Assembly (NCBI GenBank): GCA_025966315.1
Contig: JAOPUZ010000026.1
Coordinates: forward strand, 1 to 64,000
Length of the DNA: 64,000 nt
Direction: 5' to 3'
DNA from: Frankiales bacterium
GTDB taxonomy: Bacteria; Actinomycetota; Actinomycetes; Mycobacteriales; Jatrophihabitantaceae
The position numbers and the translations under genes were made by a program. This document shows, one piece after another, positions 38,590 through 52,458 of this stretch (the first letter of the stretch is position 1; every line of letters begins with the position of its first letter). The notes under the pieces are model-generated. The model had not been told where the DNA came from. It searched no databases and was given only the letters and a program-made list of their open reading frames with translations.

Positions 38590-39969
38590 TCAGCCGTCGA
38601 CCGCCTGGCTGGTACGGGCACGGACGGCCGACAGGAACGCGGCATAACTCCAGGTCAGGTCCCGGACGCTGCGCTCGTAGCCGGACTCGCCATCGAATTG
38701 TTCGCTCAGCTCCAGGTGATCGCTGTGGTGCACGACCGCACGCAGCATTTCGTCGCCGGCGGCCTGCAGTGCTGCGGCCGCCGCGCCGATCGGCGTGGCC
38801 GAGGTGACGCCGACCTGGTCGAAGAACTCCGCCGACAACTCGTCGAGCGGCAGCGTGCCCGCCGAGAGAATACCGTTCGCCACCTCGTAGTAGAGCTGGG
38901 CGAAGTTGGCGGTACACAGCGCCCAGGGATGGTCGCCGGCGCCGCCGGAACCACCGTCGTAGGTGTCCATCGGATAGCGCCCGAGCATCGGGCCCACGCC
39001 CAACTCGCGATCGGCCAGATTGATCGGATAGACCGCCGGCGAATTCGGATCAGCCCATTGGCGACGCAACTGGCCCGCGGTGGCGAGAAGTTTCGTGTCC
39101 GTACAGGGCACCGCGCCGTAGATAGCGGCCTGCACGATGTCGATGTTCGGGTCATAGCCCGCGGGCACCACTGGTTCGTCCGGCTTACCGGGCGTGACGC
39201 CGCCGATCAAGGTCGCGTAATAGGTACCATTCCAGTGCGCCGCCAACGCCTGTTGCAGCCAGGTGATTGCCGGCGCGGTCCCGGCCGGCACCGTGACGCC
39301 GACCCGGTTGGTCGTCACCTCCAACAGGCAGCGCAGCTGCACGGAGCGGGCGAAGAACGAGAAGCCGATGTGCTCTTCCCACAGGTTGGTCGTCGCGTCG
39401 GTGTAACAGGTCAGCAGGTACTCGACGTTGCGGGCGATGAGCGCGCGGGCCAACTTCTGCGTAGCCGTGTCGAGGCCGTCGAAAGCCGCCAGCACCGCGA
39501 TCGTCTGGATCGCGGGACCGTCGTTCTGCTCCGACCACGGCCGCGCCTGGCCGTCAATCGTGAAACAGGCATGGCCGAGCGTCGGGGCGGCGTTGGCCTG
39601 AGTGAGCTGCGCGAAGTTGACGTAGTCGATCAGGGCGCCAACGGCTGCGTCGGGGCCGGCCGGGCTGGCGGCGGCGACCTCGAGGGCGGTGATCGCGGCG
39701 TCGCGCGTCCAGTTGAAGACGTAGTCCTGTCGGATGTCCGGGGTGTTGGCCGGATATGACGGCGCGGCGATGACACAACCCGGCCTGGACAGCATGGTGT
39801 GGCTGGAGTCGTCGAACGGATAGCCGTCGCTGGAGATGTTCCGCAACATCAGCGCATACATGTGCTGCGCCACCCGCTCCAGCTGGATCCCCTGGAAGGC
39901 GATGCTTTCACGCGCCGCCGGTGGATTCCGGGTGGGCGTGATGGTGCGGGCAAGAGGCGTATCCGACAT
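38590..39969 (-). CDS. Intracellular glucoamylase-type glycoside hydrolase (GH15)
   Basis: 459 residues from ATG 39969. The pattern follows fungal-type glucoamylase: NWTRDAAI (about 86), DGPAIQTIAVLAAF, NLWEEH with Glu198 as general acid, GRYPMDTYDGG, and LSEQF with Glu423 as the base, then RDLTWSYAAFLSAVRAR. So both catalytic glutamates are present. There is no signal peptide and no starch-binding domain, unlike secreted glucoamylases. It would release glucose from alpha-glucans in the cytoplasm. It is divergent from the dehydrogenase operon, together with the lipocalin-like gene. Confidence 0.85.
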   Translation of the reverse strand: MSDTPLARTITPTRNPPAARESIAFQGIQLERVAQHMYALMLRNISSDGYPFDDSSHTMLSRPGCVIAAPSYPANTPDIRQDYVFNWTRDAAITALEVAAASPAGPDAAVGALIDYVNFAQLTQANAAPTLGHACFTIDGQARPWSEQNDGPAIQTIAVLAAFDGLDTATQKLARALIARNVEYLLTCYTDATTNLWEEHIGFSFFARSVQLRCLLEVTTNRVGVTVPAGTAPAITWLQQALAAHWNGTYYATLIGGVTPGKPDEPVVPAGYDPNIDIVQAAIYGAVPCTDTKLLATAGQLRRQWADPNSPAVYPINLADRELGVGPMLGRYPMDTYDGGSGGAGDHPWALCTANFAQLYYEVANGILSAGTLPLDELSAEFFDQVGVTSATPIGAAAAALQAAGDEMLRAVVHHSDHLELSEQFDGESGYERSVRDLTWSYAAFLSAVRARTSQAVDG

Positions 39970-40010: not shown

Positions 40011-40436
40011 TCAGGCCTCAGCTCGCTTGGCCGGCCGCATCCAGGCGATCTCGTTGATCGCGCCGCCGGGCTTCGGTTCGGTGCTCAGCACGAGTTGGCC
40101 GTCGCGATCACTGGCCAGCCGCGGCTCGACCGCGCCGGACCAGTTCGGGAACAAGCTGTCTTCGATGCGATGCACGACTGTGTCGCCCTGTCGCTCCCAG
40201 GTGCCCGCATAAGCCAGACAGGTTGAGTACGCCTCAGCCCGGTTCTGCGTATCGCCACCGAGCGGGTCGCCACCAGGGATGGACGGCCGCCCCGCCGCGG
40301 TCAGCACGACGGACATGTAACCGTCCGGGGCGTAGGTCAGCAGCCCGTGCGCGTCCGCTCCCAAGGGAAAGCTGATTCCACCGTCCGGATCGATCCGGCG
40401 CCAAGCCAGCAACTGCCAGGTTCCCTCGATTTCCAT
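40011..40436 (-). CDS. Lipocalin-like domain protein
   Basis: 141 residues from ATG 40436. It begins with EGTWQLLAWRRIDPDGG and continues GLLTYAPDGYMSVVLT, a pattern of the lipocalin-like PF13924-type family: an eight-stranded barrel with a small hydrophobic pocket. The end (INEIAWMRP) forms the last strand. No signal peptide. It lies 41 bases before the glucoamylase gene on the same strand and is likely co-transcribed. Ligand unknown; binding a sugar-derived or lipid product is only a guess. Confidence 0.7.
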   Translation of the reverse strand: MEIEGTWQLLAWRRIDPDGGISFPLGADAHGLLTYAPDGYMSVVLTAAGRPSIPGGDPLGGDTQNRAEAYSTCLAYAGTWERQGDTVVHRIEDSLFPNWSGAVEPRLASDRDGQLVLSTEPKPGGAINEIAWMRPAKRAEA

Positions 40437-40672: not shown

Positions 40673-41110
40673 GTGACCTCACGCCGAGACTTGTTCATTG
40701 ATCTATCCGTCGAGCTGACCGGATACTCGCGCGTCCAACTGCTCGGTACCGGGATGTCCGAGCGTTACCTGCAAGCCCTCGACGAGGTGCTGCCCGACGG
40801 CATGGTGGACGAGTTCCTGGCGACGTCGGCAGCGCTGCCGACGATGACGATCGACGCCATCCTGCGCAGCGAAACCTGGGGCCCGGTCACCCGAAACATC
40901 ATGATCCTCTGGTACTGCGGACGGTGGACGGCGCTGCCGGATTCCTGGCGAGCAGTACACGGGACCCGGCCGGCCGACAGCAACCACGTGATCTCGGCCG
41001 ATTCGTACCAGGCCGGCTTGCAGTGGGTTGCGGCCGGCGCCCACCCCGCGGGGGCCCGGCAGCAGGGCTTCGGCGCCTGGACCGTCGCTCCCGAGGAAGC
41101 GGCCTCATGA
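40673..41110 (+). CDS. Sugar dehydrogenase small subunit-like protein 1
   Basis: 145 residues from GTG 40673 with AGAGGAG five bases upstream. It matches the small subunit type found with FAD sorbitol, gluconate or glucose dehydrogenases (LFIDLSVELTGYSRVQLLGTGM, then GPVTRNIMILWYCGRW). These subunits help fold and export the flavoprotein and usually carry a Tat signal. Here only a short SRRDLF remains before the domain, with no hydrophobic export segment, so the complex should stay in the cytoplasm. The stop overlaps the first GMC gene (ATGA). It opens the ten-gene operon. Confidence 0.75.
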   Translation: MTSRRDLFIDLSVELTGYSRVQLLGTGMSERYLQALDEVLPDGMVDEFLATSAALPTMTIDAILRSETWGPVTRNIMILWYCGRWTALPDSWRAVHGTRPADSNHVISADSYQAGLQWVAAGAHPAGARQQGFGAWTVAPEEAAS

Positions 41111-42942
41111 GCGAGCATCGCAGCGACGAACGAGCGAATGGCATCGATGATGCACAGCACGATGTCGTCGTCGTGGGAGCCGGGATAGCCGGCTCCCTAG
41201 TGGCGAAACGCCTTACCCAGGCTGGGTTCAGCGTCCTCGTACTCGAAGCGGGACCGGCCACCGCGGCCGCCTTTGACGACTACAGCAATCACGTCCAGGC
41301 CTTCTACGCGGCCACCAGCAAGGGACCGGAATCGGCCTGGCCGCCCGCCGCCGGGGTGCCGCAGCCCGACACCGCCGACATCCGCACCGGGGACGGGTAC
41401 TTCGTCCAGGCCGGCCCGCTTCCCTACGGCAGCACGTACACCCGGCTCCAGGGTGGCTCAACCCTGCACTGGCTGGGCGTGTCGCTACGGATGCTGCCCG
41501 AGGACTTCCAACTCCAGTCGAGCTACGGCGTGGGGCGGGACTGGCCGCTCGACTACTGGGCGCTCGAGCCCTTTTACGGCGAGGCCGAACACGAGATCGG
41601 GGTGGCCGCCGACGTCGTCGACCAAACGCACCTGGGCCTGGAGTTCGCCCCCGGCTACGACTACCCGATGCACCGGATTCCGCCCAGCTATTCCGACCGC
41701 CTGCTCGCGGCCGCGGTGGACGGCATGACCGTCAACCTCGGCGAGGACCAGCTGGCTTTGAAGGTCCGCAATTACCCGGCCGCCCGCAACTCGATGCCGC
41801 GGGGTGATTACCGGCCGGTCGGCGCCGTCGACCAACGTCGGGCCGGGCAGGGCGACGGCCACGGCCTGGCCCGCGACCTTGGTCAGCGCTGCGCGGGCAA
41901 CACCGCCTGCACGCCGATCTGCCCGATCCAGGCCAAGTACAACGCGGGCAAGACGTTGGCTCAGGCTGACGGCCGCACCTTGCAGGTCGTTGCGCAGGCG
42001 GTCGCGTCGAAGATCCAGCTGGACCCGGTCACGGGCGAGGTGCGCGGGATTGAATACCAGCGCTACGACGATCCGGCCTCGGCGCGGCACACGGTGCACG
42101 TCGCGCGCGGGCGGGTGTACGTGCTTGCCGCCCACGCGATCGAGAACGCCAAGCTGATGCTCGCCTCCGGGCTGGGCTCGGCCAGCGGGATGCTTGGCCG
42201 GAACCTGATGGATCATCCGTCCATCTACGGCTGGGGGCTGGCCTCCCACCCGGTCGGGCCGTACCGGGGACCGCTGTCCACGTCCGGCATCGACGACCTG
42301 CGCGGCGGGCCGTTTCGAGCCCGCCACGCCGCCTTGCGAGTGGACGTCGGCAACGACGGCTGGCGGGCACCAACGGGCGCGCCGGACAGCACCGTCACCG
42401 ATGCCGTCGCCAACCGCGGCCTGTTCGGGACAGCGCTGCGCGAGCACCTGCGCTCGACGCTGTCGCGGCATGTGCGCTTCTCCCTCAACGTCGAGCAATT
42501 GCCGTCCCGATCGAACCGGGTGAGCATCGATCCGCGTTACGTCGACCTGCTGGGCAATCCGCGGCCGGTGATCAACTACGACATCGACGAGTACACGCTG
42601 GCCGGTATGGCCGCCGCGAAACGCGTGTACCAGGAAGTGTTCCGGCGCGCGGGCATCAAGGACTGCACCGACCCCGAGCAGGGTGTCTGGTTCCCGAGTG
42701 TGGCCTACCAGGGCGACACCTTGCACTACCACGGCATGGGTCACTTCGCCGGCACCCACGTGATGGGCAACGATCCGGCGCAATCGGTCGTCGACACCGA
42801 TCAGCGGTGCTGGGAACACCGCAATCTGTTCCTCGTCGGTTCGGGCAGTTTCCCGACGATGGGCACGTCCAACCCGACGCTAACCCTGGCCGCGCTAGCC
42901 CTTCGTACGGCGCGGCACCTGGCCAAGGAGCTGTCGACATGA
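41107..42942 (+). CDS. GMC-family FAD oxidoreductase 1
   Basis: 611 residues from ATG 41107, overlapping the small subunit stop. The FAD motif VVGAGIAGS is at 22-30 and the C-terminal GMC signature has GHFAGTHVMG and GTSNPTLTLAAL, with the catalytic His/Asn pair. Cys262, Cys268 and Cys272 (C-x5-C-x3-C, CAGNTACTPIC) match the spacing of the [3Fe-4S] site of bacterial FAD glucose dehydrogenase. So it is probably a sugar dehydrogenase passing electrons through an iron-sulfur cluster. No signal peptide. Its paralogue is at 43993. The ferritin-like gene follows with another ATGA overlap. Confidence 0.84.
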   Translation: MSEHRSDERANGIDDAQHDVVVVGAGIAGSLVAKRLTQAGFSVLVLEAGPATAAAFDDYSNHVQAFYAATSKGPESAWPPAAGVPQPDTADIRTGDGYFVQAGPLPYGSTYTRLQGGSTLHWLGVSLRMLPEDFQLQSSYGVGRDWPLDYWALEPFYGEAEHEIGVAADVVDQTHLGLEFAPGYDYPMHRIPPSYSDRLLAAAVDGMTVNLGEDQLALKVRNYPAARNSMPRGDYRPVGAVDQRRAGQGDGHGLARDLGQRCAGNTACTPICPIQAKYNAGKTLAQADGRTLQVVAQAVASKIQLDPVTGEVRGIEYQRYDDPASARHTVHVARGRVYVLAAHAIENAKLMLASGLGSASGMLGRNLMDHPSIYGWGLASHPVGPYRGPLSTSGIDDLRGGPFRARHAALRVDVGNDGWRAPTGAPDSTVTDAVANRGLFGTALREHLRSTLSRHVRFSLNVEQLPSRSNRVSIDPRYVDLLGNPRPVINYDIDEYTLAGMAAAKRVYQEVFRRAGIKDCTDPEQGVWFPSVAYQGDTLHYHGMGHFAGTHVMGNDPAQSVVDTDQRCWEHRNLFLVGSGSFPTMGTSNPTLTLAALALRTARHLAKELST

Positions 42943-44009
42943 CCGCGGCCCGCCTGAAAGAACTGCTCGCCGCGGCGGTCAAGCTCGAGCTGGCGACGAT
43001 CCCGCCGTACCTGTGCGCGCTCTATTCGATCCGGCCCGGCAGCAATCAGCAGGCGACTCTCGTGCTGCGCTCGGTCGTGGTGGAAGAAATGCTGCACATG
43101 GTGCTGGCCGCCAACGTCCTCAACGCGATCGGCGGCCGGCCGCAGGTGGCCGGCCGGGAGCACGCCCCGCATTACCCACACGAGCTGCCGGACGGCGTCA
43201 TCCTGGATCTGCTGCCGTTCTCACCCGCGGCGATCGAGTCGTTCTTGCAGGTCGAGAATCCCCAATACCTACCGACGCTTACCGCCCCGGACAGCGCGGC
43301 ACTGCAGGTCCGCCGTCCCGAGCTGCACACCTCGCACGCGGTCGCCGTGTCGGAGCGTCCCACAACGATCGGTGCCTTCTACCAAGAGATCACCGAGACC
43401 TTGAAGGCCGTCGCCGCGGACATCGGTGAGCCGGCGTTGTTCTGTGGCGACCCGGCGCGCCAGATCGGCGCCGAGTTCTACTACGCCGGCGGCGGGTCAC
43501 CGACCAGAGTCACCGATCTCGAATCGGCCTGCCGCGCCCTGGACGAAGTCGTCGACCAGGGCGAGGGCGACATACTTTCCCCCTATGACGCCGACGGGGA
43601 CCTCGCCCACTACTTCCGCTTCCAGCAGCTGAAATACAACCGGAGTTATCTGGCCGCCGACGAGATCGGCACGCCGACCGGCCCGGCCATGGGCGTCGAC
43701 TTCAAGACCGTCTACCCGATGCTCGCCAATCCGCGCACGGCCGAGTACGACGATCCGGACCTGAAAGCGGCTTCCGTACGGGCCAATCACAGCTGGTCGC
43801 AGCTGCTCCAACAGCTGGACGCCGCCTTCGACGGGCGACCCGACGCTTTGCTGCCCGCGGTGCACACGATGTTCCGGCTCCGTGACGCGATGCTCGTGCT
43901 GCTGGCCAATCCCTTACCCGATCACCACGGCCGGCATGCGGGGCCGACATTCGAATGGCAACCATTCACCACAGCGAAGGCAGGGACGAATCATGATCTT
44001 TCCCCGTGA
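42939..44009 (+). CDS. Ferritin-like (PF12902-type) protein 1
   Basis: 356 residues from ATG 42939 (four-base overlap with the GMC stop). The helical core begins LKELLAAAVKLELATIPPYLCALYSI, and Glu17, Glu50 and His53 (EEMLHMVLAANVLNAIGG, an ExxH motif) are likely diiron ligands; further acidic candidates sit in AFYQEITE and GAEFYYAGG. This is the fold of the iminophenylpyruvate dimer synthase/VioB-associated ferritin-like family. In this operon it probably handles electrons or peroxide from the GMC enzymes. A second copy follows, so the module is duplicated. Confidence 0.77.
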   Translation: MTAARLKELLAAAVKLELATIPPYLCALYSIRPGSNQQATLVLRSVVVEEMLHMVLAANVLNAIGGRPQVAGREHAPHYPHELPDGVILDLLPFSPAAIESFLQVENPQYLPTLTAPDSAALQVRRPELHTSHAVAVSERPTTIGAFYQEITETLKAVAADIGEPALFCGDPARQIGAEFYYAGGGSPTRVTDLESACRALDEVVDQGEGDILSPYDADGDLAHYFRFQQLKYNRSYLAADEIGTPTGPAMGVDFKTVYPMLANPRTAEYDDPDLKAASVRANHSWSQLLQQLDAAFDGRPDALLPAVHTMFRLRDAMLVLLANPLPDHHGRHAGPTFEWQPFTTAKAGTNHDLSP

Positions 44010-45915
44010 CGCCACGCGGCGAACCGACCACAAGGCAGCCTCGGAGACTTTTTACGACGTCGTCGTGGTCGGGTCTGGGATCAGCGGCGCGATCATCGCC
44101 GAGCAATTGAGCCAGGCCGGCAAGCGGGTGCTTGTGCTCGAAGCGGCAGCGGACGAAGACCGCTCGCTCAAGGGATACGAAGGTTTCCTGTCACGTTTCT
44201 ATGCCGCGGCCAGTAAGGACAACCAGTCGCCGTACCCGCACAATCCGAACGCACCCATGCCGCGCAGCACCGACGCGCGCCGCATCTGGCCGGGGCAGCC
44301 CGACTCCTCGGCGTACCTGGTGCAGAACGGCCCGTTTTCCTCGGACACGACGTACACCCGGGTGCTCGGCGGTACCACGATGCACTGGGAAGCCAAGACC
44401 CCGAGGATGCTGCCGCAGGACTTTCACCTGCGCACCATGTTCGGCTTGGGCCAGGACTGGCCGCTGACCTACGACGACCTGTCGCCCTACTACGTCCAGG
44501 CCGAACGGGAACTCGGTGTCTCGGCCGACGTCGAGCACCAGAGCTACCTCGGCGCCACGTTCGATCCGGGCTACGTCTTCCCGATGCACGAATTGCCCCT
44601 GTCCTACCTGGACAAAGTGGTCGCCAAGGGGGTCGACGGCACGTTCGTCGAGCTTGACGGTGAGCAGTTCGAGCTGTCGGTGCGCGCCTTCCCGCAGGCA
44701 CGCAATGGCGTGCCCAACGCGGCCTACGACAACGGAAAGGGCTACGTCCCGGTCGGCGCGGTCAACACCCACCAGGTCGAGGAGGGCGAGCGCTGCCAGG
44801 GGAATAACAATTGCGTGCCGCTGTGCCCGGTGCAGGCCAAGTATCACGCCGGCAAGACCCTGGCCAAAGCGCTGCAGGACGGCCGGGTGGATCTGCTGAC
44901 CCGAACCGTCGCGTCGAAAGTACTCGTTGATCCGGCGACCGGGCGGGTCGACGGCATCGAGGTCAAGGTCTACCAGGACCCCGAGTCACCCCAACACACG
45001 ACGATGATCATGCGCGGGCAGATCTTTGTGCTGGCCGCGAACGCGATCGAGAATCCGCGCCTGATGCTGGCCTCCGGGCTGAGCGGTTCGAGCGGGCTGA
45101 TGGGCCGCAATCTGATGGATCACGCCTACCTGCTGAGCTGGGCGCTGTTGCCCGAAATGGCCGGCACCTTTCGGGGGACGAACTGCACCGGCGGGATCGT
45201 CGACCTGCGGGCCGGCTCGTTCCGTCGGCAGCAAGCCGCCTTCGCCGTCGACATCCACAACGACGGGTGGGGCTGGGCCACCGGCGCGCCGTATTCGGAT
45301 CTGGTCGATCTCGTCGACCAGCAGAACCTGTTCGGAGCCGAGCTGCGCCGAGCCCTGCCCGATCGGATCAGCCGTCAGCTGCTGCTGGCCTTGATGATCG
45401 ACGTACTGCCCAACGAGAGCAACCGGGTCACGGTCGACCCGGCGTACACCGATCAGCTCGGCAACATGCGCCCAGTCATCTCGTACACGGTGCCGGAATA
45501 CACGATGCGCGGCGTCGCCTACGCGCGCCAGTTCGCCCGCCAGGTCTTCCAGCGACTCGGCGCCGCCGACCACACGGCGTATGACCCGACGGACGGCGCT
45601 TACCTGACGTATGAGGGTGAGGGCTACGTCATCCGGGGCGGCAACCACCTGGCCGGCACGCACATGATGGGGACGAATTCCCGGAACTCGGTCGTCGACG
45701 CCCAGCAACGCAGCTGGGATCACCCGAATCTGTATCTGGTCGGCGGTGGGAGCATGCCCACGATCGGCACGTCCAACGTCACGCTGACCATGGCGGCACT
45801 GTGCTACCGCAGCGCGGAGCGCATTATCGCCCAACTTCAGGACGAGCTCTCGGCCCGGCTGCAGACGCCGGCGCCGACCGAACTGCCGATGCCCACGGTC
45901 GTGGCAGCGTCATGA
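43993..45915 (+). CDS. GMC-family FAD oxidoreductase 2
   Basis: 640 residues from ATG 43993, overlapping the end of ferritin-like 1 by 17 bases in another frame. FAD motif VVVGSGISGA at 25-33; C-terminal GMC region with GNHLAGTHMMG and GTSNVTLTMAAL. Cys268, Cys274 and Cys278 (CQGNNNCVPLC) repeat the C-x5-C-x3-C motif of the first copy. Both share the QAKYxAGKTL segment after the cysteines. The two GMC proteins are clearly paralogues and may oxidise different sugars or positions. No export signal is present, so electrons cannot go to a periplasmic cytochrome. Confidence 0.84.
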   Translation: MIFPRDATRRTDHKAASETFYDVVVVGSGISGAIIAEQLSQAGKRVLVLEAAADEDRSLKGYEGFLSRFYAAASKDNQSPYPHNPNAPMPRSTDARRIWPGQPDSSAYLVQNGPFSSDTTYTRVLGGTTMHWEAKTPRMLPQDFHLRTMFGLGQDWPLTYDDLSPYYVQAERELGVSADVEHQSYLGATFDPGYVFPMHELPLSYLDKVVAKGVDGTFVELDGEQFELSVRAFPQARNGVPNAAYDNGKGYVPVGAVNTHQVEEGERCQGNNNCVPLCPVQAKYHAGKTLAKALQDGRVDLLTRTVASKVLVDPATGRVDGIEVKVYQDPESPQHTTMIMRGQIFVLAANAIENPRLMLASGLSGSSGLMGRNLMDHAYLLSWALLPEMAGTFRGTNCTGGIVDLRAGSFRRQQAAFAVDIHNDGWGWATGAPYSDLVDLVDQQNLFGAELRRALPDRISRQLLLALMIDVLPNESNRVTVDPAYTDQLGNMRPVISYTVPEYTMRGVAYARQFARQVFQRLGAADHTAYDPTDGAYLTYEGEGYVIRGGNHLAGTHMMGTNSRNSVVDAQQRSWDHPNLYLVGGGSMPTIGTSNVTLTMAALCYRSAERIIAQLQDELSARLQTPAPTELPMPTVVAAS

Positions 45916-47012
45916 CCACCAGCCATCACCTCAACGGAGACAGCATGCCCGCGATCACCACGCTGGACGAGCTCTACGCCTATCTGGACTCGGCGATGCA
46001 ATTGGAACATGCGACCATTCCCCCTTATCTCACCGCGCTTTACTCGATTCGCCCTGGGACGAACTCGGACGCATATCACGTGTTGCGGGTGACGGTAGTG
46101 GAAGAGATGCTGCACCTGACGCTGGTCGCCAACCTGCTCAATGCGGTCGGCGGCACGCCCGATCTCACGGTGGCGGGATTCGTGCCCGACTATCCCGCCT
46201 ATCTTCCCGATGGCGAACGTGACTTCCAGGTCAGCTGTGCCCGCTTCTCGCGCGAGTCGCTGGGCACCTTCCTCGAGATCGAGCGCCCGCGCCAGGCACC
46301 GGACGAGCAGTCGAGGTTGATCGATCGAGGGCCCGCGCGACGCGGCCGGCTCGGGTCCGCACCCGGCAACAACCAGCTGCAGTACTACAGCATCGGCGAG
46401 TTCTACCAGGAGATCTCGCGCGGGCTGCACTACCTGCATGATCTGCTCGGCGACGCCCTGTTCTGCGGCGATCCGACTCGACAGGTCGGCAGCGAATACT
46501 TCTACTCCGGTGGCGGGGCGATCGTGCCGGTCAGCGATCTCAGGTCGGCGGAAGCCGCGATCGACCTCATCTGCGAGCAGGGTGAGGGCTTCGGGGGCGG
46601 CATCTTCGACTCCGAGGGCGAGCTGGCGCACTATTACCGGTTCCAGCAGCTCGTCCTCGGACGCTATTACCAAGAACGCGATTCCCGCGATCATCCGTCT
46701 GGCCCGCATATCGAGGTCGACTGGGACGCGGCCTACCCGATCAAGCAGAACGCCCACTTGGCCGACTACCCGGCTGATTCGGAGGTCGCCGCGGCGGCGA
46801 TCGCATTCAATACGTCCTACGCCGGCTTCCTCGACCTGCTAACCCGCGCCTACGGCGGCCGTCCGGAATTGCTGTTGGACGCCGTTACTGAGATGTTCCG
46901 GCTGCGCGATCAGATGACGCGGCTCATCCACAATCCGATCCCCGGCCTGGACGGCGTCAACGCGGCGCCGACCTTCGAGGTGTCCGTTCACCTGGCTGGG
47001 GTGGCGTCGTGA
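45912..47012 (+). CDS. Ferritin-like (PF12902-type) protein 2
   Basis: 366 residues from ATG 45912 (ATGA overlap with the GMC 2 stop). Glu32 (LEHATIPPYLTALYSI), Glu65 and His68 (EEMLHLTLVANLLNAVGG) are the probable diiron ligands, in the same positions as in ferritin-like 1. The second half has YQEISRGLHYLHDLLGDALFCGDP, also shared. It is more hydrophilic than copy 1 in the middle. It pairs with the second GMC enzyme by gene order. Whether it is an oxidase, an electron acceptor or a peroxide scavenger cannot be told from sequence. Confidence 0.77.
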   Translation: MTTSHHLNGDSMPAITTLDELYAYLDSAMQLEHATIPPYLTALYSIRPGTNSDAYHVLRVTVVEEMLHLTLVANLLNAVGGTPDLTVAGFVPDYPAYLPDGERDFQVSCARFSRESLGTFLEIERPRQAPDEQSRLIDRGPARRGRLGSAPGNNQLQYYSIGEFYQEISRGLHYLHDLLGDALFCGDPTRQVGSEYFYSGGGAIVPVSDLRSAEAAIDLICEQGEGFGGGIFDSEGELAHYYRFQQLVLGRYYQERDSRDHPSGPHIEVDWDAAYPIKQNAHLADYPADSEVAAAAIAFNTSYAGFLDLLTRAYGGRPELLLDAVTEMFRLRDQMTRLIHNPIPGLDGVNAAPTFEVSVHLAGVAS

Positions 47013-47506
47013 CCGGCCCCCGGCAACTCGACGGCTCCCGGCGGCTCGAGGATTTTCTGGCCTTCTCGGCCGAGGCGACGGCTTTCACCGTTTTCGAGCT
47101 GCGCGGTACCGGCCAGTCGCAGGCGTACCTGAACACCTGCGACGGGATCGTCGGAACCGAAGTCACCGATTGCCTGCTCGATCGCTATGACGCGGCCCGA
47201 TCGGCCGTCGTAGCCAGCGAGTCGACGCTGCCCGAGCTGCTGCGCCGCGACATTCTCAGCGACCCGCAGCTCGGACCGGTGGCCCGAAACATAGCCAAGA
47301 TGTGGTTCGTCGGAGTCTGGTACGAACTGCCACGGGCGTGGACCGAAGCGTTCGGCGCACGCGAGGGAAACGCCACCTTCGTGGTGTCGACCCAGTCGTA
47401 CACCGAAGGTTTGCTGTGGCCCGCGATCGGGGCGAACCCGCCGGGTGCCAAAGCGCCCGGATTCGGATCGTGGGCGCATCCCCCGCGCATTCCGGTATTT
47501 CCGTGA
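47009..47506 (+). CDS. Sugar dehydrogenase small subunit-like protein 2
   Basis: 165 residues from GTG 47009 (GTGA overlap). It shares the small-subunit pattern: FLAFSAEATAFTVFELRGTG, then LGPVARNIAKMWFVGVWYELP, and the GFGSWAHPP end like the first copy's GFGAWTV. No Tat or Sec signal. It probably serves the second GMC enzyme. The order of the two modules is small-GMC-ferritin followed by GMC-ferritin-small, so the operon is arranged almost as a mirror image around the centre. Confidence 0.75.
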   Translation: MTGPRQLDGSRRLEDFLAFSAEATAFTVFELRGTGQSQAYLNTCDGIVGTEVTDCLLDRYDAARSAVVASESTLPELLRRDILSDPQLGPVARNIAKMWFVGVWYELPRAWTEAFGAREGNATFVVSTQSYTEGLLWPAIGANPPGAKAPGFGSWAHPPRIPVFP

Positions 47507-49527
47507 CGCCCGGGCCGATTCGTTTCGGGCGCGAGACCACAGGCGACCTGGCTTTTGCCGAGCGGCGTGAGTGGCTGGTGACCAACGGCATCGGCGGTTA
47601 CGGTTCGGGAACCCTGGCCGGCTCGATCACCCGCGGCTATCACGGGCTGCTGGTCGCCGCCCGGCAGCCACCGGTTGACCGGCGATTGATGCTGGTAAAA
47701 CTCGACGAGACGCTCAGCTATCGCGGCTGCGGCTACGAGCTGGCTACGAACCGGTGGGCCAGCGGTGTCGTGGCACCGACCGGGTACACCAGCATCGAGA
47801 GCTTCGAGCTCGAAGGCTCAGTTCCGGTATGGCGTTTCGCCTGCGCCGAGGCGCTGATCGAGAAGCGGATCTGGATGAAGCAGGGGGCCAACACGACCTA
47901 CCTCGCCTACACCGTGGTCTCGGCGGCCGAGCCCGTCCAACTGTCGATCACCGCGATCGTCGACAACCGCGGTTTCCACGACACCGGCGCGGTGGCCTGG
48001 CCGGCCGAGGTATCGCTGATCAATGGCGGCCTGCAGGTCGCGTCCGGCGGCCCGGGCAGCCTGCCCCTGGTAATGCTGGCCAGCGCCGGCGAGGCGCACG
48101 TGGTCAACGAGCTGTACGAGGGCTACCTGCTCCCGGCCGAGACCGCCCGCGGCCTGACCGACCGCGACGATCACGTGCACGCCGGGACGTTCACCGCGCT
48201 GTTGGCGCCGGGTCAGACCCTGCTGTTCCTGGCCAGTGCCGAAGCCAACCCGGTCATCGAGGATGACCCGCTGGAGCAACGCCGAGATCGTGACCGGACG
48301 GTGCTGGCCGGCTGGGCCGGAATCGATGGCGCGGCGGGCACACCAGAACCGCCGGTGCGTCCCAGCTGGGTCGAGCAGCTCGTACTGGCCGCCGATCAGT
48401 TCATCGTGGCTCGCCCAACGGTGGATCAGTCGCACGGGCAGAGCGTGATCGCCGGTTACCACTGGTTCGAGGACTGGGGTCGCGACACGATGATCAGCCT
48501 GCCCGGACTCACCCTGGTCACCGGCCGGCCCGCGGTCGCGGCGGCGATCCTGCGGGCGTTCGCGCAGTTCGTCAGCGACGGCATGCTGCCGAACCGGTTC
48601 CCGGACGGCAGCGATGAACCGGTGTACAACACGATCGACGCGACCCTCTGGTATTTCCAGGCCATCCGCGAATATCACGACGCGAGTGGCGATGACGGGC
48701 TGCTGCGCGAGCTATGGCCGACGCTGCAACACATCATCGACTGGCACATCAAGGGCACCCGCTACAACATCAAGCTCGACCCGGTCGACGGCCTGCTCAG
48801 CGGGGGCGAGCCGGGCGTCCAGCTCACCTGGATGGATGCGATCGTCGGCGATCACGTGATCACGCCGCGAATCGGCAAACCGGTCGAGGTGAACGCGCTG
48901 TGGCATAACGCGTTGGTGGCGATGGCGGCGTTCGCGGCCCGGATCGATGAGCCCCCGAATGAATATCAGCAACGAGCCGAGGCCGCCGCGAACGGTTTCG
49001 ATCGGTTCTGGAACGCCTCGGCGGGTTACTGCTACGACGTGCTCGACGGCCCGGACGGCGACGACGACGCCCTGCGCCCGAATCAGCTGCTGGCCGTATC
49101 GCTGACCGGCAATCTGCTCGGGGCGCAACGGCAGAAATCCGTAGTCGACGCGTGCGCCCACGCCCTGCTGACCTCGCACGGGCTCCGTTCGCTCGCACCG
49201 ACCGATCCCGCGTTCAGGGGTTTCTACGGCGGTGACCAGGCGCACCGCGACGCCGCCTACCACCAGGGAACGGTCTGGGCTTGGCTGATCGGCCCGTTCG
49301 TCGACGCCCATCTTCGCGTCTACCGCGACCCGGTCGCGGCGCGGCGATTCCTGCTGCCGTTCGCAGATCACCTCAACGCGGCCGGCCTCGGCAGCGTGAG
49401 CGAAGTCTTCGATGGCGACGCACCGTTCTCGCCCAAGGGGTGCATCGCGCAGGCCTGGGGCGTGGCCGAGGTGCTGCGCGCGTTTGCCCGCATCGAGTCG
49501 TTGTCCGTCCCGCATCGCCTCAACTAG
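47503..49527 (+). CDS. Amylo-alpha-1,6-glucosidase-like glycogen debranching enzyme
   Basis: 674 residues from GTG 47503 (GTGA overlap). The N-terminal domain (EWLVTNGIGGYGSGTLAGSITRGYHGLL) and the catalytic (alpha/alpha)6 domain with HWFEDWGRDTMISLPGL, LPNRFPDG and YNTIDATLWYF match the archaeal/bacterial debranching glucosidases of GH133. Asp in WGRDTMIS and the Glu/Asp of the later WMDAIVG and HQGTVWAWL segments are catalytic candidates. It would cut alpha-1,6 branches of glycogen-like glucans. Together with the divergent glucoamylase it supplies glucose units for the dehydrogenases. Confidence 0.87.
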   Translation: MTPGPIRFGRETTGDLAFAERREWLVTNGIGGYGSGTLAGSITRGYHGLLVAARQPPVDRRLMLVKLDETLSYRGCGYELATNRWASGVVAPTGYTSIESFELEGSVPVWRFACAEALIEKRIWMKQGANTTYLAYTVVSAAEPVQLSITAIVDNRGFHDTGAVAWPAEVSLINGGLQVASGGPGSLPLVMLASAGEAHVVNELYEGYLLPAETARGLTDRDDHVHAGTFTALLAPGQTLLFLASAEANPVIEDDPLEQRRDRDRTVLAGWAGIDGAAGTPEPPVRPSWVEQLVLAADQFIVARPTVDQSHGQSVIAGYHWFEDWGRDTMISLPGLTLVTGRPAVAAAILRAFAQFVSDGMLPNRFPDGSDEPVYNTIDATLWYFQAIREYHDASGDDGLLRELWPTLQHIIDWHIKGTRYNIKLDPVDGLLSGGEPGVQLTWMDAIVGDHVITPRIGKPVEVNALWHNALVAMAAFAARIDEPPNEYQQRAEAAANGFDRFWNASAGYCYDVLDGPDGDDDALRPNQLLAVSLTGNLLGAQRQKSVVDACAHALLTSHGLRSLAPTDPAFRGFYGGDQAHRDAAYHQGTVWAWLIGPFVDAHLRVYRDPVAARRFLLPFADHLNAAGLGSVSEVFDGDAPFSPKGCIAQAWGVAEVLRAFARIESLSVPHRLN

Positions 49528-49571: not shown

Positions 49572-50483
49572 GTGAGTGCATCCGTCCTATTCGACCGCAC
49601 GAAAGTACATCTCGGCGTGACGCCGACACTCTGGTGGAACGACGACTTTCCCAGTATCGACATCGGCATTCCCTTCGAACAGTGCGTGAGCGAGATGGCG
49701 CTGGCCGGCTTCGAGGGCTGCAGTATTGGCCACAAGTACCCGACCGACATCGCCGTCCTGCGCAACGCGCTGGAGCTCCGAGGCTTACGGGTGTCGGAGC
49801 CGTGGACGAGTACGTACTTCACCAGCGAGGACATGTACCAGACGACGCTGCGCACGTTCCGGGCGTCGCTGGACTTCATCAAGGCCATGGGCGGCACCGA
49901 CCTGGTGGTCGCCGAGTTCGGTGGCGCGGTCAATCCGCTGCCGGTGGCGCTCTTCGCCAACCGTCCGCTGTTCGATGGCCGGCAGTGGTCCGCGCTCTGC
50001 GACGGGATGAACGAGCTGGGCAAGATCACGGCCGCGGAAGGCATGCGGCTGTGTTACCACCACCACATGGGCACCGGGGTGATGACCCGCGCCGACACCG
50101 ACCGGCTGATGGCCGGCACCGATCCGGACCTCGTCCACCTGTGTCTGGACACCGGACACGCCGCCTTCGCCGGGGACGACCCGTTGGCGCTAGCCCAGGC
50201 CTACGCCCCCCGCATCGGGCACGTCCACCTCAAGGACGTCCGGCCAGAGGTTGTCCTCGCCGTGCGCGAGCAGTACCTGACCTTTCAGGAAGCCATCGAG
50301 GCCGGCGTCTTCACCGTTCCCGGTGACGGCTCGATCGACTTCGTGCCCATCCTGCAGACCCTGGCCGACAGCGGGTACGAAGGGTGGCTGGTGGTCGAAG
50401 CCGAGCAGGATCCCGCGAAGGCCCCGCCACTGGAGTACGCCCTCAAGGCTCGGGCGTACCTGCGCGACGTCCTCGGGTGGTAG
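49572..50483 (+). CDS. iolE: Myo-inosose-2 dehydratase (IolE)-like protein
   Basis: 303 residues from GTG 49572 with AGGAGG seven bases upstream, the strongest ribosome site in this operon. It follows the IolE sequence closely: VTPTLWWNDDFPS, PFEQCVSEMALAGFEGCSIGHKYP, LCLDTGHAAFAGDDPLALAQ and a C-terminal FTVPGDGSIDFVPIL. The TIM-barrel ligates a metal with Glu, Asp, His and Glu. IolE dehydrates 2-keto-myo-inositol. No inositol transporter or iolBCDG gene is in the operon, so here it may act on another keto-sugar formed by the dehydrogenases; that is inference. Confidence 0.82.
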   Translation: MSASVLFDRTKVHLGVTPTLWWNDDFPSIDIGIPFEQCVSEMALAGFEGCSIGHKYPTDIAVLRNALELRGLRVSEPWTSTYFTSEDMYQTTLRTFRASLDFIKAMGGTDLVVAEFGGAVNPLPVALFANRPLFDGRQWSALCDGMNELGKITAAEGMRLCYHHHMGTGVMTRADTDRLMAGTDPDLVHLCLDTGHAAFAGDDPLALAQAYAPRIGHVHLKDVRPEVVLAVREQYLTFQEAIEAGVFTVPGDGSIDFVPILQTLADSGYEGWLVVEAEQDPAKAPPLEYALKARAYLRDVLGW

Positions 50484-50485
50484 CC

Positions 50486-51508
50486 ATGTCAACGACGCAA
50501 CGGGCCGTGTATTTCAGCTTCTTCATGTTCACCGCCGATCTACGGCCCGATGATCGTGCCTACAACGCGACCATCGCCCAGCACGTGAAGGAGCTTTCGT
50601 CGTTCGGTTACAACGGTTTCGACCTGCCGATCGCGCCGGCGGCCAGCACCGACTACCGTGCCGAGATCGAGAGCTACGCGGCACTGCGCAAAGCGCTCGA
50701 CAACGCCGGGCTGGGCGATGTCCCCTTCACGACCAACGTCGCGGTGACCAGAACCTTCAATCCGGCCTCGCCCTATCGGGAACAGCGGGAGGCCGCCCTG
50801 AGCTATCTGAAGTCACGCGTGGACATCACGGCCGCCCTCGACGGATCGATCATGGCCGGCCCGATCATCTTTCCCTACAACGTGTATCCGATCACCGACG
50901 CCGGTGAGCCGCTCTGGTCCGACGCGTTACAGGCGTGGGCCGCGCCCGGATATCGGCACGCGAGGGCAATCCTGCAGGAGCTGGGCGAGTACGCCGGCGA
51001 GCGGGGCGTGACCCTGGGCATCGAACCGGTCGATCACTGGGAGACGGCCGCGCCGAACCTTGTCGGTGACGTCGCGGACTTCCTCGACGGCATCACCAGC
51101 CCCAGCGTCGGGGTGTGCATCGACAGCTCGCACGTGGTGCTGGGCAGCGAGGGGCCGGCGGCGTTCCGGGCGCAGGTCGAGCGGCTGGCCGTCGGGCGGC
51201 GGATCAGCTCCATCCATGTCTCGGCGCCGGACCGCGGCGAGCTGGCCGACAGCTGGATCCCGTGGCGAACCTTCCTCGATCCCATCCTGCGCAGTTATGA
51301 AGGGCCTTTACTGGTCGAGGTGTTCAATGCCATCCCAGCGTTCGTGAACTCGTTCCGGCTGACCAGAAGAAAGTTCTGGTTCCCGGGCGAGGACGTGCCG
51401 GTACCCGGTGTCCCGGACGCGTACACCGTGGCCGCACAGGCGATCGAAACGGTGCGGCGTGAGCTGGCGCTGCTAGCCGGCGACCCGGTCGGGACGGACA
51501 TCTCATGA
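50486..51508 (+). CDS. TIM-barrel sugar isomerase/epimerase-like protein
   Basis: 340 residues from ATG 50486. It is a xylose-isomerase-like (AP endonuclease 2) barrel: FGYNGFDLPIA, IEPVDHWETAAPN, VGVCIDSSHVVLG and LLVEVFNAI supply the Glu, Asp, His and Glu metal ligands. This fold covers allulose/tagatose epimerases and the large subunit of C-glycoside-cleaving enzymes that act on 3-keto sugars. It starts just after the IolE-like stop and overlaps the next start (ATGA). I cannot pick between epimerase and lyase. A keto-sugar substrate would suit the operon. Confidence 0.78.
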   Translation: MSTTQRAVYFSFFMFTADLRPDDRAYNATIAQHVKELSSFGYNGFDLPIAPAASTDYRAEIESYAALRKALDNAGLGDVPFTTNVAVTRTFNPASPYREQREAALSYLKSRVDITAALDGSIMAGPIIFPYNVYPITDAGEPLWSDALQAWAAPGYRHARAILQELGEYAGERGVTLGIEPVDHWETAAPNLVGDVADFLDGITSPSVGVCIDSSHVVLGSEGPAAFRAQVERLAVGRRISSIHVSAPDRGELADSWIPWRTFLDPILRSYEGPLLVEVFNAIPAFVNSFRLTRRKFWFPGEDVPVPGVPDAYTVAAQAIETVRRELALLAGDPVGTDIS

Positions 51509-52458
51509 CCGACACCACGCCCGCCACCCGTCTCGGCGACGTCCTGGTCCAACGTCAGGGCGAGTCGTTCAACGCCAATACCCGGCGCTCCTACCGAGCC
51601 GCCTCCGTTCACGGCACCTCCGCCGACCGGCTCGGTCCGCTGGCCGAACTCCCGGGGTTCTGGGAAGGCACCGGGTTCGGCCTGATCGCTCGTCCCGATT
51701 TCGAGAGCGACAACCCGGACGGCTTCTTCCTGCAGCTGAACGTGCTGCGCGAGACGATCGAGTTCCAGCAGATCGGCTCACCCATCATGAATCGGGGCAG
51801 CGCTCAGGACGACATTGCCCTGTACGGCGTCACGTATCTGCATCGCGTCACCGATGCGGCCACCGGGGGTGCGCTACACATCGAGCCCGGCGTATGGCTC
51901 AACATCCCACTGACGACAGACCCACCGGCCCAGGCGAGCGTGGCCAGGCTGGCAACTATTCCGCACGGCAACTCCGTCTGTGCGGTGGGATTCCCCGAAT
52001 ATGTCGTGCCCGACGGGCTGCCCGACATTCCGCCGGCAAACACGGTTCCATTTATTATCGGCGGTCAGGAGCCGCCGCCGGGCACGAGGAACCCGTACGC
52101 CGACTACGACCTCAGTGTGGGCAGCGCGTATCGGACCAGCCCGCTTCCGGCCGAGATCACCCAGGCCGTGATCGACGACCCGAACACCCTGCTGCGTGAG
52201 GCGTTGCGAGGCCAGACCCTGACGCACATCACCCGGCTCATCGTGTCCACCGACGCGGACAGCGGGGTGAGCAACATCCCGTTCATCACGCAGAACGCCA
52301 ACACCCGCATCCTGCAATCCGTATTCGCCATCGAAGAGGTTCAAGACGCAGCCGGCACCCCGTTCATGCAGCTGCAGTATTCGCAGACGGCCCTGCTGGA
52401 CTTTCGGGGAAAGTCATTCCCGCACGTGACGGTGGGAACGCTGATCAAAGCATTCTGA
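51505..52458 (+). CDS. Beta-barrel protein, possibly heme-binding (nitrobindin/FABP-like)
   Basis: 317 residues from ATG 51505 (ATGA overlap). The middle (LPGFWEGTGFGLIARPDF, then FLQLNVLRETIEFQQIG, then GVTYLHRVTDA and LHIEPGVWLNIP) suggests a ten-stranded barrel like nitrobindin or THAP4-type heme proteins; the end has repeated strand patterns (HITRLIVSTDADSG). I am unsure of the family. It closes the operon; its end overlaps the convergent TetR gene by 14 bases. A heme protein here could remove peroxide or take electrons, but it may simply bind a sugar acid. Confidence 0.55.
   Translation: MTDTTPATRLGDVLVQRQGESFNANTRRSYRAASVHGTSADRLGPLAELPGFWEGTGFGLIARPDFESDNPDGFFLQLNVLRETIEFQQIGSPIMNRGSAQDDIALYGVTYLHRVTDAATGGALHIEPGVWLNIPLTTDPPAQASVARLATIPHGNSVCAVGFPEYVVPDGLPDIPPANTVPFIIGGQEPPPGTRNPYADYDLSVGSAYRTSPLPAEITQAVIDDPNTLLREALRGQTLTHITRLIVSTDADSGVSNIPFITQNANTRILQSVFAIEEVQDAAGTPFMQLQYSQTALLDFRGKSFPHVTVGTLIKAF

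Follow-up and report, generated by a model that had tools for sequence, protein, structure and literature searches.

A putative cytosolic relative of FAD glucose dehydrogenase, encoded beside a ferritin-like protein instead of a cytochrome

A module of GMC flavoproteins, small subunits and ferritin-like proteins

We analysed a 64,000-nucleotide window of contig JAOPUZ010000026.1 from a Frankiales bacterium, in which positions 40673-47506 of the plus strand hold a module of six genes: a gamma-like small subunit with a GTG start (SML1, 40673..41110), a GMC flavoprotein of lineage A (GMC1, 41107..42942), a divergent, long-branched ferritin-like protein of the PF12902 family (FER1, 42939..44009), a GMC flavoprotein of lineage B (GMC2, 43993..45915), a second PF12902 protein (FER2, 45912..47012) and a second gamma-like small subunit (SML2, 47009..47506). 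Adjacent genes share four bases, except that FER1 and GMC2 overlap by 17. An earlier reading of the DNA from its letters alone (the sequence-only reading) had recognised a pair each of flavoproteins, small subunits and PF12902 proteins, and open reading frames (ORFs) and family matches bear this out; it had described the genes as fused, when they are separate and overlapping. The C-x5-C-x3-C motif that it claimed is present in both GMC1 and GMC2. Within the window, the paired proteins are 44% (FER1/FER2), 49% (GMC1/GMC2) and 37% (SML1/SML2) identical.

Kinship of the flavoproteins with flavin adenine dinucleotide (FAD) glucose dehydrogenases, cluster cysteines included, had also been proposed; for glucose and fructose dehydrogenases it is supported by profile, alignment and structure comparison. 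A profile of both window GMCs reaches the Burkholderia cepacia glucose dehydrogenase BcGDH (6a2u, 1e-93) and Gluconobacter fructose dehydrogenase (FDH; 7w2j, 1e-77) far ahead of pyranose oxidases, and against the pyranose 2-oxidase model TIGR02462 the two proteins score 58.2 and 71.4 bits for a cut-off of 544.9. In the profile match the three motif cysteines align with the [3Fe-4S] cysteines of 6a2u and 7w2j, and the histidine of a GG-T-HW motif (H131) aligns with BcGDH His105. All of these residues are invariant in the 43 aligned GMCs of the FER-linked type (43/43), as is a His/Asn pair that we take to be catalytic. Superposition of the GMC part of a model of GMC linked to FER gives Z values of up to 46.5 with FDH and 42.8 with BcGDH, the other GMCs shown reaching at most 36.1. 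Pyranose 2-oxidase and C-glycoside oxidase (7dve, 7qva) share the GMC fold and sugar oxidation with the window proteins but are structurally more remote (Z 36 versus 40-46 for FDH and BcGDH).

According to the accessible part of the BcGDH structure report (PMC6719666), the [3Fe-4S] cluster is held by Cys212, Cys218 and Cys222, FAD is bound to His105, a loop before the cysteines surrounds the cluster and Cys213 forms a disulfide to the gamma subunit. By this comparison we infer a [3Fe-4S] cluster on C268/C274/C278 of GMC2, and FAD is probably attached to the GG-T-HW histidine. The expected closeness of the cysteine triplet to FAD stands on alignment to the solved structures; our own linked model gives the cluster loop, which spans residues 259-275 in L037 and holds two of the three cysteines, a predicted local distance difference test score (pLDDT) below 50. 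The position of BcGDH Cys213 is never cysteine in the 43 aligned proteins, and the stretch preceding the cluster cysteines measures 54-88 residues in them versus 34-40 in other GMCs, as determined in the 10 of 15 with a measurable anchor motif. The longer stretch may reflect a remodelled electron exit.

The small subunits are gamma-like but very divergent, and their homology to the gamma subunit is probable. Neither window protein matches PF12318 at 0.001; among 36 small subunits 19 match it at E<=1 (best 1.3e-6), SML2 not being one of them. A small-subunit profile reaches the FDH small subunit 7w2j_B at E 0.024, aligning from its residue 47 onward. SML1 and SML2 are both without a twin-arginine translocation (Tat) signal. 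Under our stricter rule, by which a twin-arginine motif must lie at most 60 residues upstream of the mature domain and be accompanied by a hydrophobic core, 0/49 small-subunit domains from 47 FER-linked loci carry a signal, in agreement with our first Tat test. SML1 alone among the 49 has a twin-arginine motif, with no hydrophobic core after it; this SRRDLF lies within the mature-domain motif, and its hydrophobic score is 0.6 versus 1.64-2.29 in Tat-type small subunits. By comparison, 13 of 15 GMCs without FER have an upstream small ORF with both motif and core. Because no signal peptide is present, the enzyme is predicted to be cytosolic, and triheme cytochrome c is not matured in the cytosol.

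No ORF of more than 90 amino acids with a CxxCH motif lies on the same strand within 3 kb of the window GMCs, a search that did not extend to cytochromes in the remaining genome. An ORF with at least three CxxCH motifs occurs within 3 kb of 6/15 GMCs without FER. Near FER-linked GMCs, CxxCH ORFs were seen in three loci: small unverified ORFs in L038 and L048, and one of 499 amino acids in L060.

Both ferritin-like proteins are clear members of PF12902 (204 and 217 bits, cut-off 22.3). The AlphaFold model of FER (mean pLDDT 91.3) superposes best on CC_0557 (3hl1, Z 28.9); Z falls to about 11-13 for Dps, bacterioferritin, nigerythrin and Mn catalase. FER shares its fold and conserved Glu/His set with CC_0557 and the VioB domain, and differs from them in forming its own clade, mostly with GMC neighbours. 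An alignment of 99 sequence pieces, including a single short fragment, keeps E32, E65, H68, E124 and H240 (FER2 numbering) in 98 and E225 in 97. Carboxylate-bridged diiron sites follow a pattern of Glu, ExxH, Glu, ExxH on four helices. The first half of FER fits this spacing (E32, E65xxH68); the second half offers E124, E225 and H240 with no conserved ExxH, so that only the first half is classic when set beside the ligand spacing that we take bacterioferritin to have. Four glutamates and two histidines are the residues of which a diiron site is composed, and here they probably form a two-metal site. Of the ExxH motifs that the sequence-only reading had assigned to the ferritin-like proteins, the second is ExxH in FER2 and DxxH in FER1, the family keeping only its histidine. 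The GMC-linked FER clade additionally keeps Y198, Y253, D257 and W271 in 95-98% of its members (5-16% outside the clade). The source genome has a third, distant PF12902 gene on contig C37 (L004:8167-9330), with no GMC in the 19 kb examined.

Distribution and phylogeny of the FER-GMC linkage

The sequence-only reading had placed a ferritin-like gene where related systems have a cytochrome gene and had named co-occurrence in other genomes as a test; searches that begin from FER and searches that begin from GMC both support this placement and find the two genes together. A scan of named genomes with a FER profile gave 80 loci, 38 of them with a motif-bearing GMC adjoining FER, and no such GMC was found in the examined flanks of PF12902 proteins outside the GMC-linked clade. 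The reverse test used GMC alone, independently of FER: a FER gene adjoins in 11/11 genomes with a GMC of at least 820 bits, three of which (G000, G457 and G458) were our starting points. Of the 396 genomes searched in the window's phylum, three carry a GMC match above 850 bits, and these three were also the best in a PF12902 search of 396 genomes of the phylum; a fourth, weaker GMC (456 bits) is accompanied by a Tat-type small ORF and lacks FER. In the phylum of Flavobacterium (345 genomes) all three genomes with a GMC match have FER. The 398 genomes of Pseudomonadota gave 31 with a GMC match: the five above 840 bits all have FER and SML, two intermediate GMCs (551 and 620 bits) are without FER, and none of the 12 examined among the 24 weaker ones has it.

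When all loci with the exact C-x5-C-x3-C motif and more than 150 bits are tabulated jointly, FER lies near 55 of 70 GMCs, a proportion biased by the choice of most loci through FER, and 54 of the 55 have a small-subunit gene within 6 kb. Outside this table stand L216, the motif-less GMC genes of L041, L048, L085 and L184, and the plasmid loci L210-L219. The one exception is a Spirosoma locus (L060:8674-9906) in which FER is intact and no small subunit lies nearby; its GMC is truncated, the match to the profile beginning only at position 243 of 611.

In a GMC tree of 62 rows, obtained by a quick search with Shimodaira-Hasegawa-like approximate likelihood ratio (SH-aLRT) support only and leaving out eight near-identical or truncated loci, the 47 FER-linked rows form one clade (SH-aLRT 99). 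Two sister GMCs, L188 and L189, fall just outside it, and the triheme-linked GMCs form a separate clade (99). Both sisters are accompanied by a lipoprotein-like protein of 465-494 amino acids (L188:5939-7420, L189:11241-12635), perhaps a third kind of electron partner, whose single CxxCH is C-terminal and which matches no Pfam family at 0.001. In the FER tree (85 rows, 12 loci and the L080 fragment left out), a single clade of 39 rows (SH-aLRT 95) takes in all 35 that have a neighbouring GMC. The remaining four are L073, whose contig ends just behind FER, L050, and the Terriglobia proteins L040 and L069. In the latter two (L040:9794-11011, L069:9860-11011) a gene that looks Rieske-like by eye lies divergently just upstream.

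GMC and FER distances correlate across 33 loci (r 0.97, reached in 0/2000 permutations), and the same cross-phylum pairs, L037/L038 and L036/L047, recur in both trees; these observations indicate that GMC and FER move together. Within the GMC tree, GMC1 groups with L036_6116 and L047_6176, copies from Polyangiaceae and Pseudomonadota, and GMC2 with 16 other rows. The two types split near the base of the clade and lie in different deep branches, and on this ground we reject a recent tandem duplication. The earlier description of the locus as a duplicated module is therefore misleading, and the two sets are better seen as old paralogous lineages.

The surrounding island and its plasmid copies

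The series of tightly spaced plus-strand genes runs on from the module to position 52458. It continues with a glycogen-debranching-type glycosidase (GDE_N and GDE_C; 47503..49527, start read by eye), whose start, an in-frame GTG at 47503, gives a four-base overlap with the SML2 stop, an IolE-like protein (49578..50483; TIGR04379, 356 bits, cut-off 290), a sugar isomerase/epimerase-like TIM barrel (PF01261; 50486..51508, start read by eye), which scores under the IolO and psicose epimerase cut-offs, and the heme-binding protein heme_bind_FMP (51505..52458; NF040572, 260 bits, cut-off 150). On the minus strand, upstream of the module, lie a lipocalin-like protein (40011..40436) and a GH15 family glycosidase (38590..39969) with 56% identity to the GH15 protein that adjoins the module in Rhizobium. 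On account of the IolE-like gene we considered canonical inositol catabolism, and rejected it: the source genome (95.8% complete) has no IolD above cut-off, and IolE is for that reason taken as a similarity only.

Much of this arrangement recurs on plasmids. An Agrobacterium larrymoorei plasmid has, in order, lipocalin, GH15, a small hypothetical protein (SML), GMC, GMC, FER, SML, IolE, isomerase and heme-binding protein, with best matches to the window proteins at 42-67% identity; this island has a single FER and no counterpart of the debranching-type enzyme. Rhizobium plasmids carry GH15, GMC, FER, SML, IolE and the TIM barrel together with MBL and thiamine pyrophosphate (TPP) enzymes. Indolepyruvate decarboxylase models come closest to the TPP enzyme, which scores under their cut-offs, and the best 25 of the 52 families that it matches do not include IolD. 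A sugar or cyclitol pathway common to the actinobacterium and the rhizobial and agrobacterial plasmids is probable. Two Rhizobium loci (L210:4222-5742, L212:3099-4626) have a LuxR gene and an acyl-homoserine-lactone synthase close to the module, and quorum control of it is possible.

In total, FER matches occur in 171 of 72,556 plasmid records, 114 of which are from Rhizobium. Of ten plasmid loci, five have an intact motif-bearing GMC and one a divergent C-x5-C-x2-C protein; three keep FER intact with nothing but fragments of GMC next to it, and in one no GMC was found. The divergent case, on a Methylorubrum plasmid (L216:5912-9029), combines a very divergent GMC with FER and an upstream gene of about 156 amino acids, and may be a remote second form of the triad. 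The three stretches with GMC fragments also contain transposase genes. The FER without GMC, from a Streptomyces plasmid (L215:7833-9017), scores like those of L040, L069 and L050 and looks Terriglobia-type by eye; it stood outside the FER tree.

Across the 47 loci with FER and GMC, heme_bind_FMP is found in 23, many of them close Bacteroidota relatives, and in 0/15 and 0/44 control loci. This heme protein may take part in peroxide handling; it was not found in the other 24. The IolE-like protein occurs in 14/47 and the epimerase-like TIM barrel in 11/47. DyP peroxidase is present in 5/47 and also in 1/44 controls, and galactose-oxidase-like proteins occur in cyanobacterial loci. The Flavobacterium loci (L051-L053, L058, L059, L062, L065, L066, L072 and others) have a setting unlike the sugar island, the module being followed by ABM, FMP, Dabb-domain and berberine-bridge-type FAD oxidase genes.

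Possible roles of the ferritin-like protein

The module resembles BcGDH (gamma-alpha-beta; 6a2u, 8grj) and Gluconobacter FDH in its GMC subunit, cluster cysteines, flavin-linking histidine and small-subunit partner. Unlike them, it lacks a Tat signal on its small subunit, a triheme cytochrome in the neighbourhood and the disulfide cysteine of the alpha side, and it has a longer pre-cluster stretch and a ferritin-like gene instead of the cytochrome gene. Its catalytic subunit belongs to the FAD dehydrogenase family, as its small subunit probably does, and two features that define the complex, Tat export and a neighbouring cytochrome, are missing. The accessible part of a study of BcGDH places its cluster 7-8 A from a cytochrome heme, the expected electron recipient (PMC9727119), and by this precedent a partner at the cluster exit is to be expected. 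Since the cluster cysteines are kept, an acceptor there is likely in the FER-linked enzymes, and FER is the sole candidate acceptor present in every locus of the type.

We therefore favour, tentatively and at somewhat less than even confidence, a cytosolic, cytochrome-free variant of FAD glucose/fructose dehydrogenase in which FER accepts electrons in the cytochrome's place. In such an enzyme, GMC and its Tat-less gamma-like small subunit would oxidise a sugar or cyclitol, electrons would leave the flavoprotein through the [3Fe-4S] cluster, and the PF12902 protein, replacing the triheme cytochrome, would receive them and pass them to O2 or peroxide (H2O2). A more specific version, with FER docked at the cluster exit as the last member of a flavin - [3Fe-4S] - diiron chain and O2 reduced there to water, would make a soluble cytosolic sugar oxidase that releases no free peroxide; we hold it to be rather improbable.

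Several observations weigh against electron transfer from GMC to FER. The linked GMC-FER model has a predicted template modelling score (pTM) of 0.66 with no confident interface, about the value that we estimate for the GMC domain alone; it neither supports docking nor excludes it. The third long helix of FER has no conserved carboxylate. The sister enzymes L188 and L189 have Tat-less small subunits and no FER, so that loss of the Tat signal alone does not require FER. Within the GMC-linked clade, the FERs of L040, L069 and L050 have no GMC nearby, nor does the Streptomyces plasmid FER have one within 8 kb, and on the rhizobial plasmids L211, L217 and L218 FER is intact while the adjoining GMC is broken. 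Two GMCs accompany one FER in 7/47 loci and in Agrobacterium, a pattern that does not point to a complex of fixed 1:1 composition. Finally, the correlation of GMC and FER distances lacks a control for the species tree.

Some of these points suit an explanation that we consider unlikely yet worth keeping in view, that FER is a separate pathway enzyme, a VioB-like di-metal oxidase or oxygenase that acts on the keto product of GMC and exchanges no electrons with it directly. By analogy with VioB, which follows a flavin oxidase, FER could be the next enzyme of the pathway. At 21.6 bits FER1 weakly matches a part of the VioB model (iminophenyl-pyruvate dimer synthase, NCBIfam equivalog cut-off 1250; FER2 none at 0.001), the module sits in a pathway island beside IolE-like and epimerase-like enzymes, and both the loci with two GMCs to one FER and the ability of FER to stand without GMC fit such a role. 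However, FER tracks the Tat-less, cytochrome-less GMC clade closely, which a partner role explains better than a separate enzyme does, and GMC, FER and SML remain together while the other island genes vary between phyla. We find it more doubtful still that GMC is a cytosolic oxidase and FER a rubrerythrin- or Mn-catalase-like remover of peroxide, with no electrons passing from cluster to FER. FER does superpose on nigerythrin and Mn catalase, but its fit to bacterioferritin and Dps is just as good, and genes possibly related to peroxide recur in the loci (heme_bind_FMP, DyP peroxidase and galactose-oxidase-like proteins). Fungal PF12902 genes are also oxidase-adjacent, lying near genes of a LodA/LodB-like pair according to the accessible part of PMC4417212, and differ from ours in their hosts and in the oxidase family. 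Yet an oxidase would not need the cluster cysteines that every aligned protein keeps, and an ordinary scavenger is not expected to track one GMC clade so tightly. That FER and GMC are neighbours by chance, or as functionally unconnected cargo of one island, could be suspected from the sporadic distribution and the plasmid copies, but the FER-linked rows of the GMC tree fall in one clade drawn from six named phyla with differing surrounding genes; this explanation is very improbable and nearly refuted.

In the literature searched, which was without most subscription journals and preprints, we found no description of a GMC-FER system, and PMC4417212, as far as its accessible part goes, was the only report bearing on PF12902 genes that adjoin oxidases. 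The module is spread over at least six phyla and is also carried on rhizobial plasmids. FAD glucose dehydrogenase is used in direct-electron-transfer glucose sensors, and the family's electron exit is a cytochrome (PMC9727119, accessible part); a soluble clade with FER in the cytochrome's place would show that this exit is exchangeable, and an oxygen-linked sugar oxidase that yields no peroxide might result. The little-studied PF12902 family would gain a testable role, and the pattern as a whole points to an undescribed intracellular means of disposing of electrons or peroxide.

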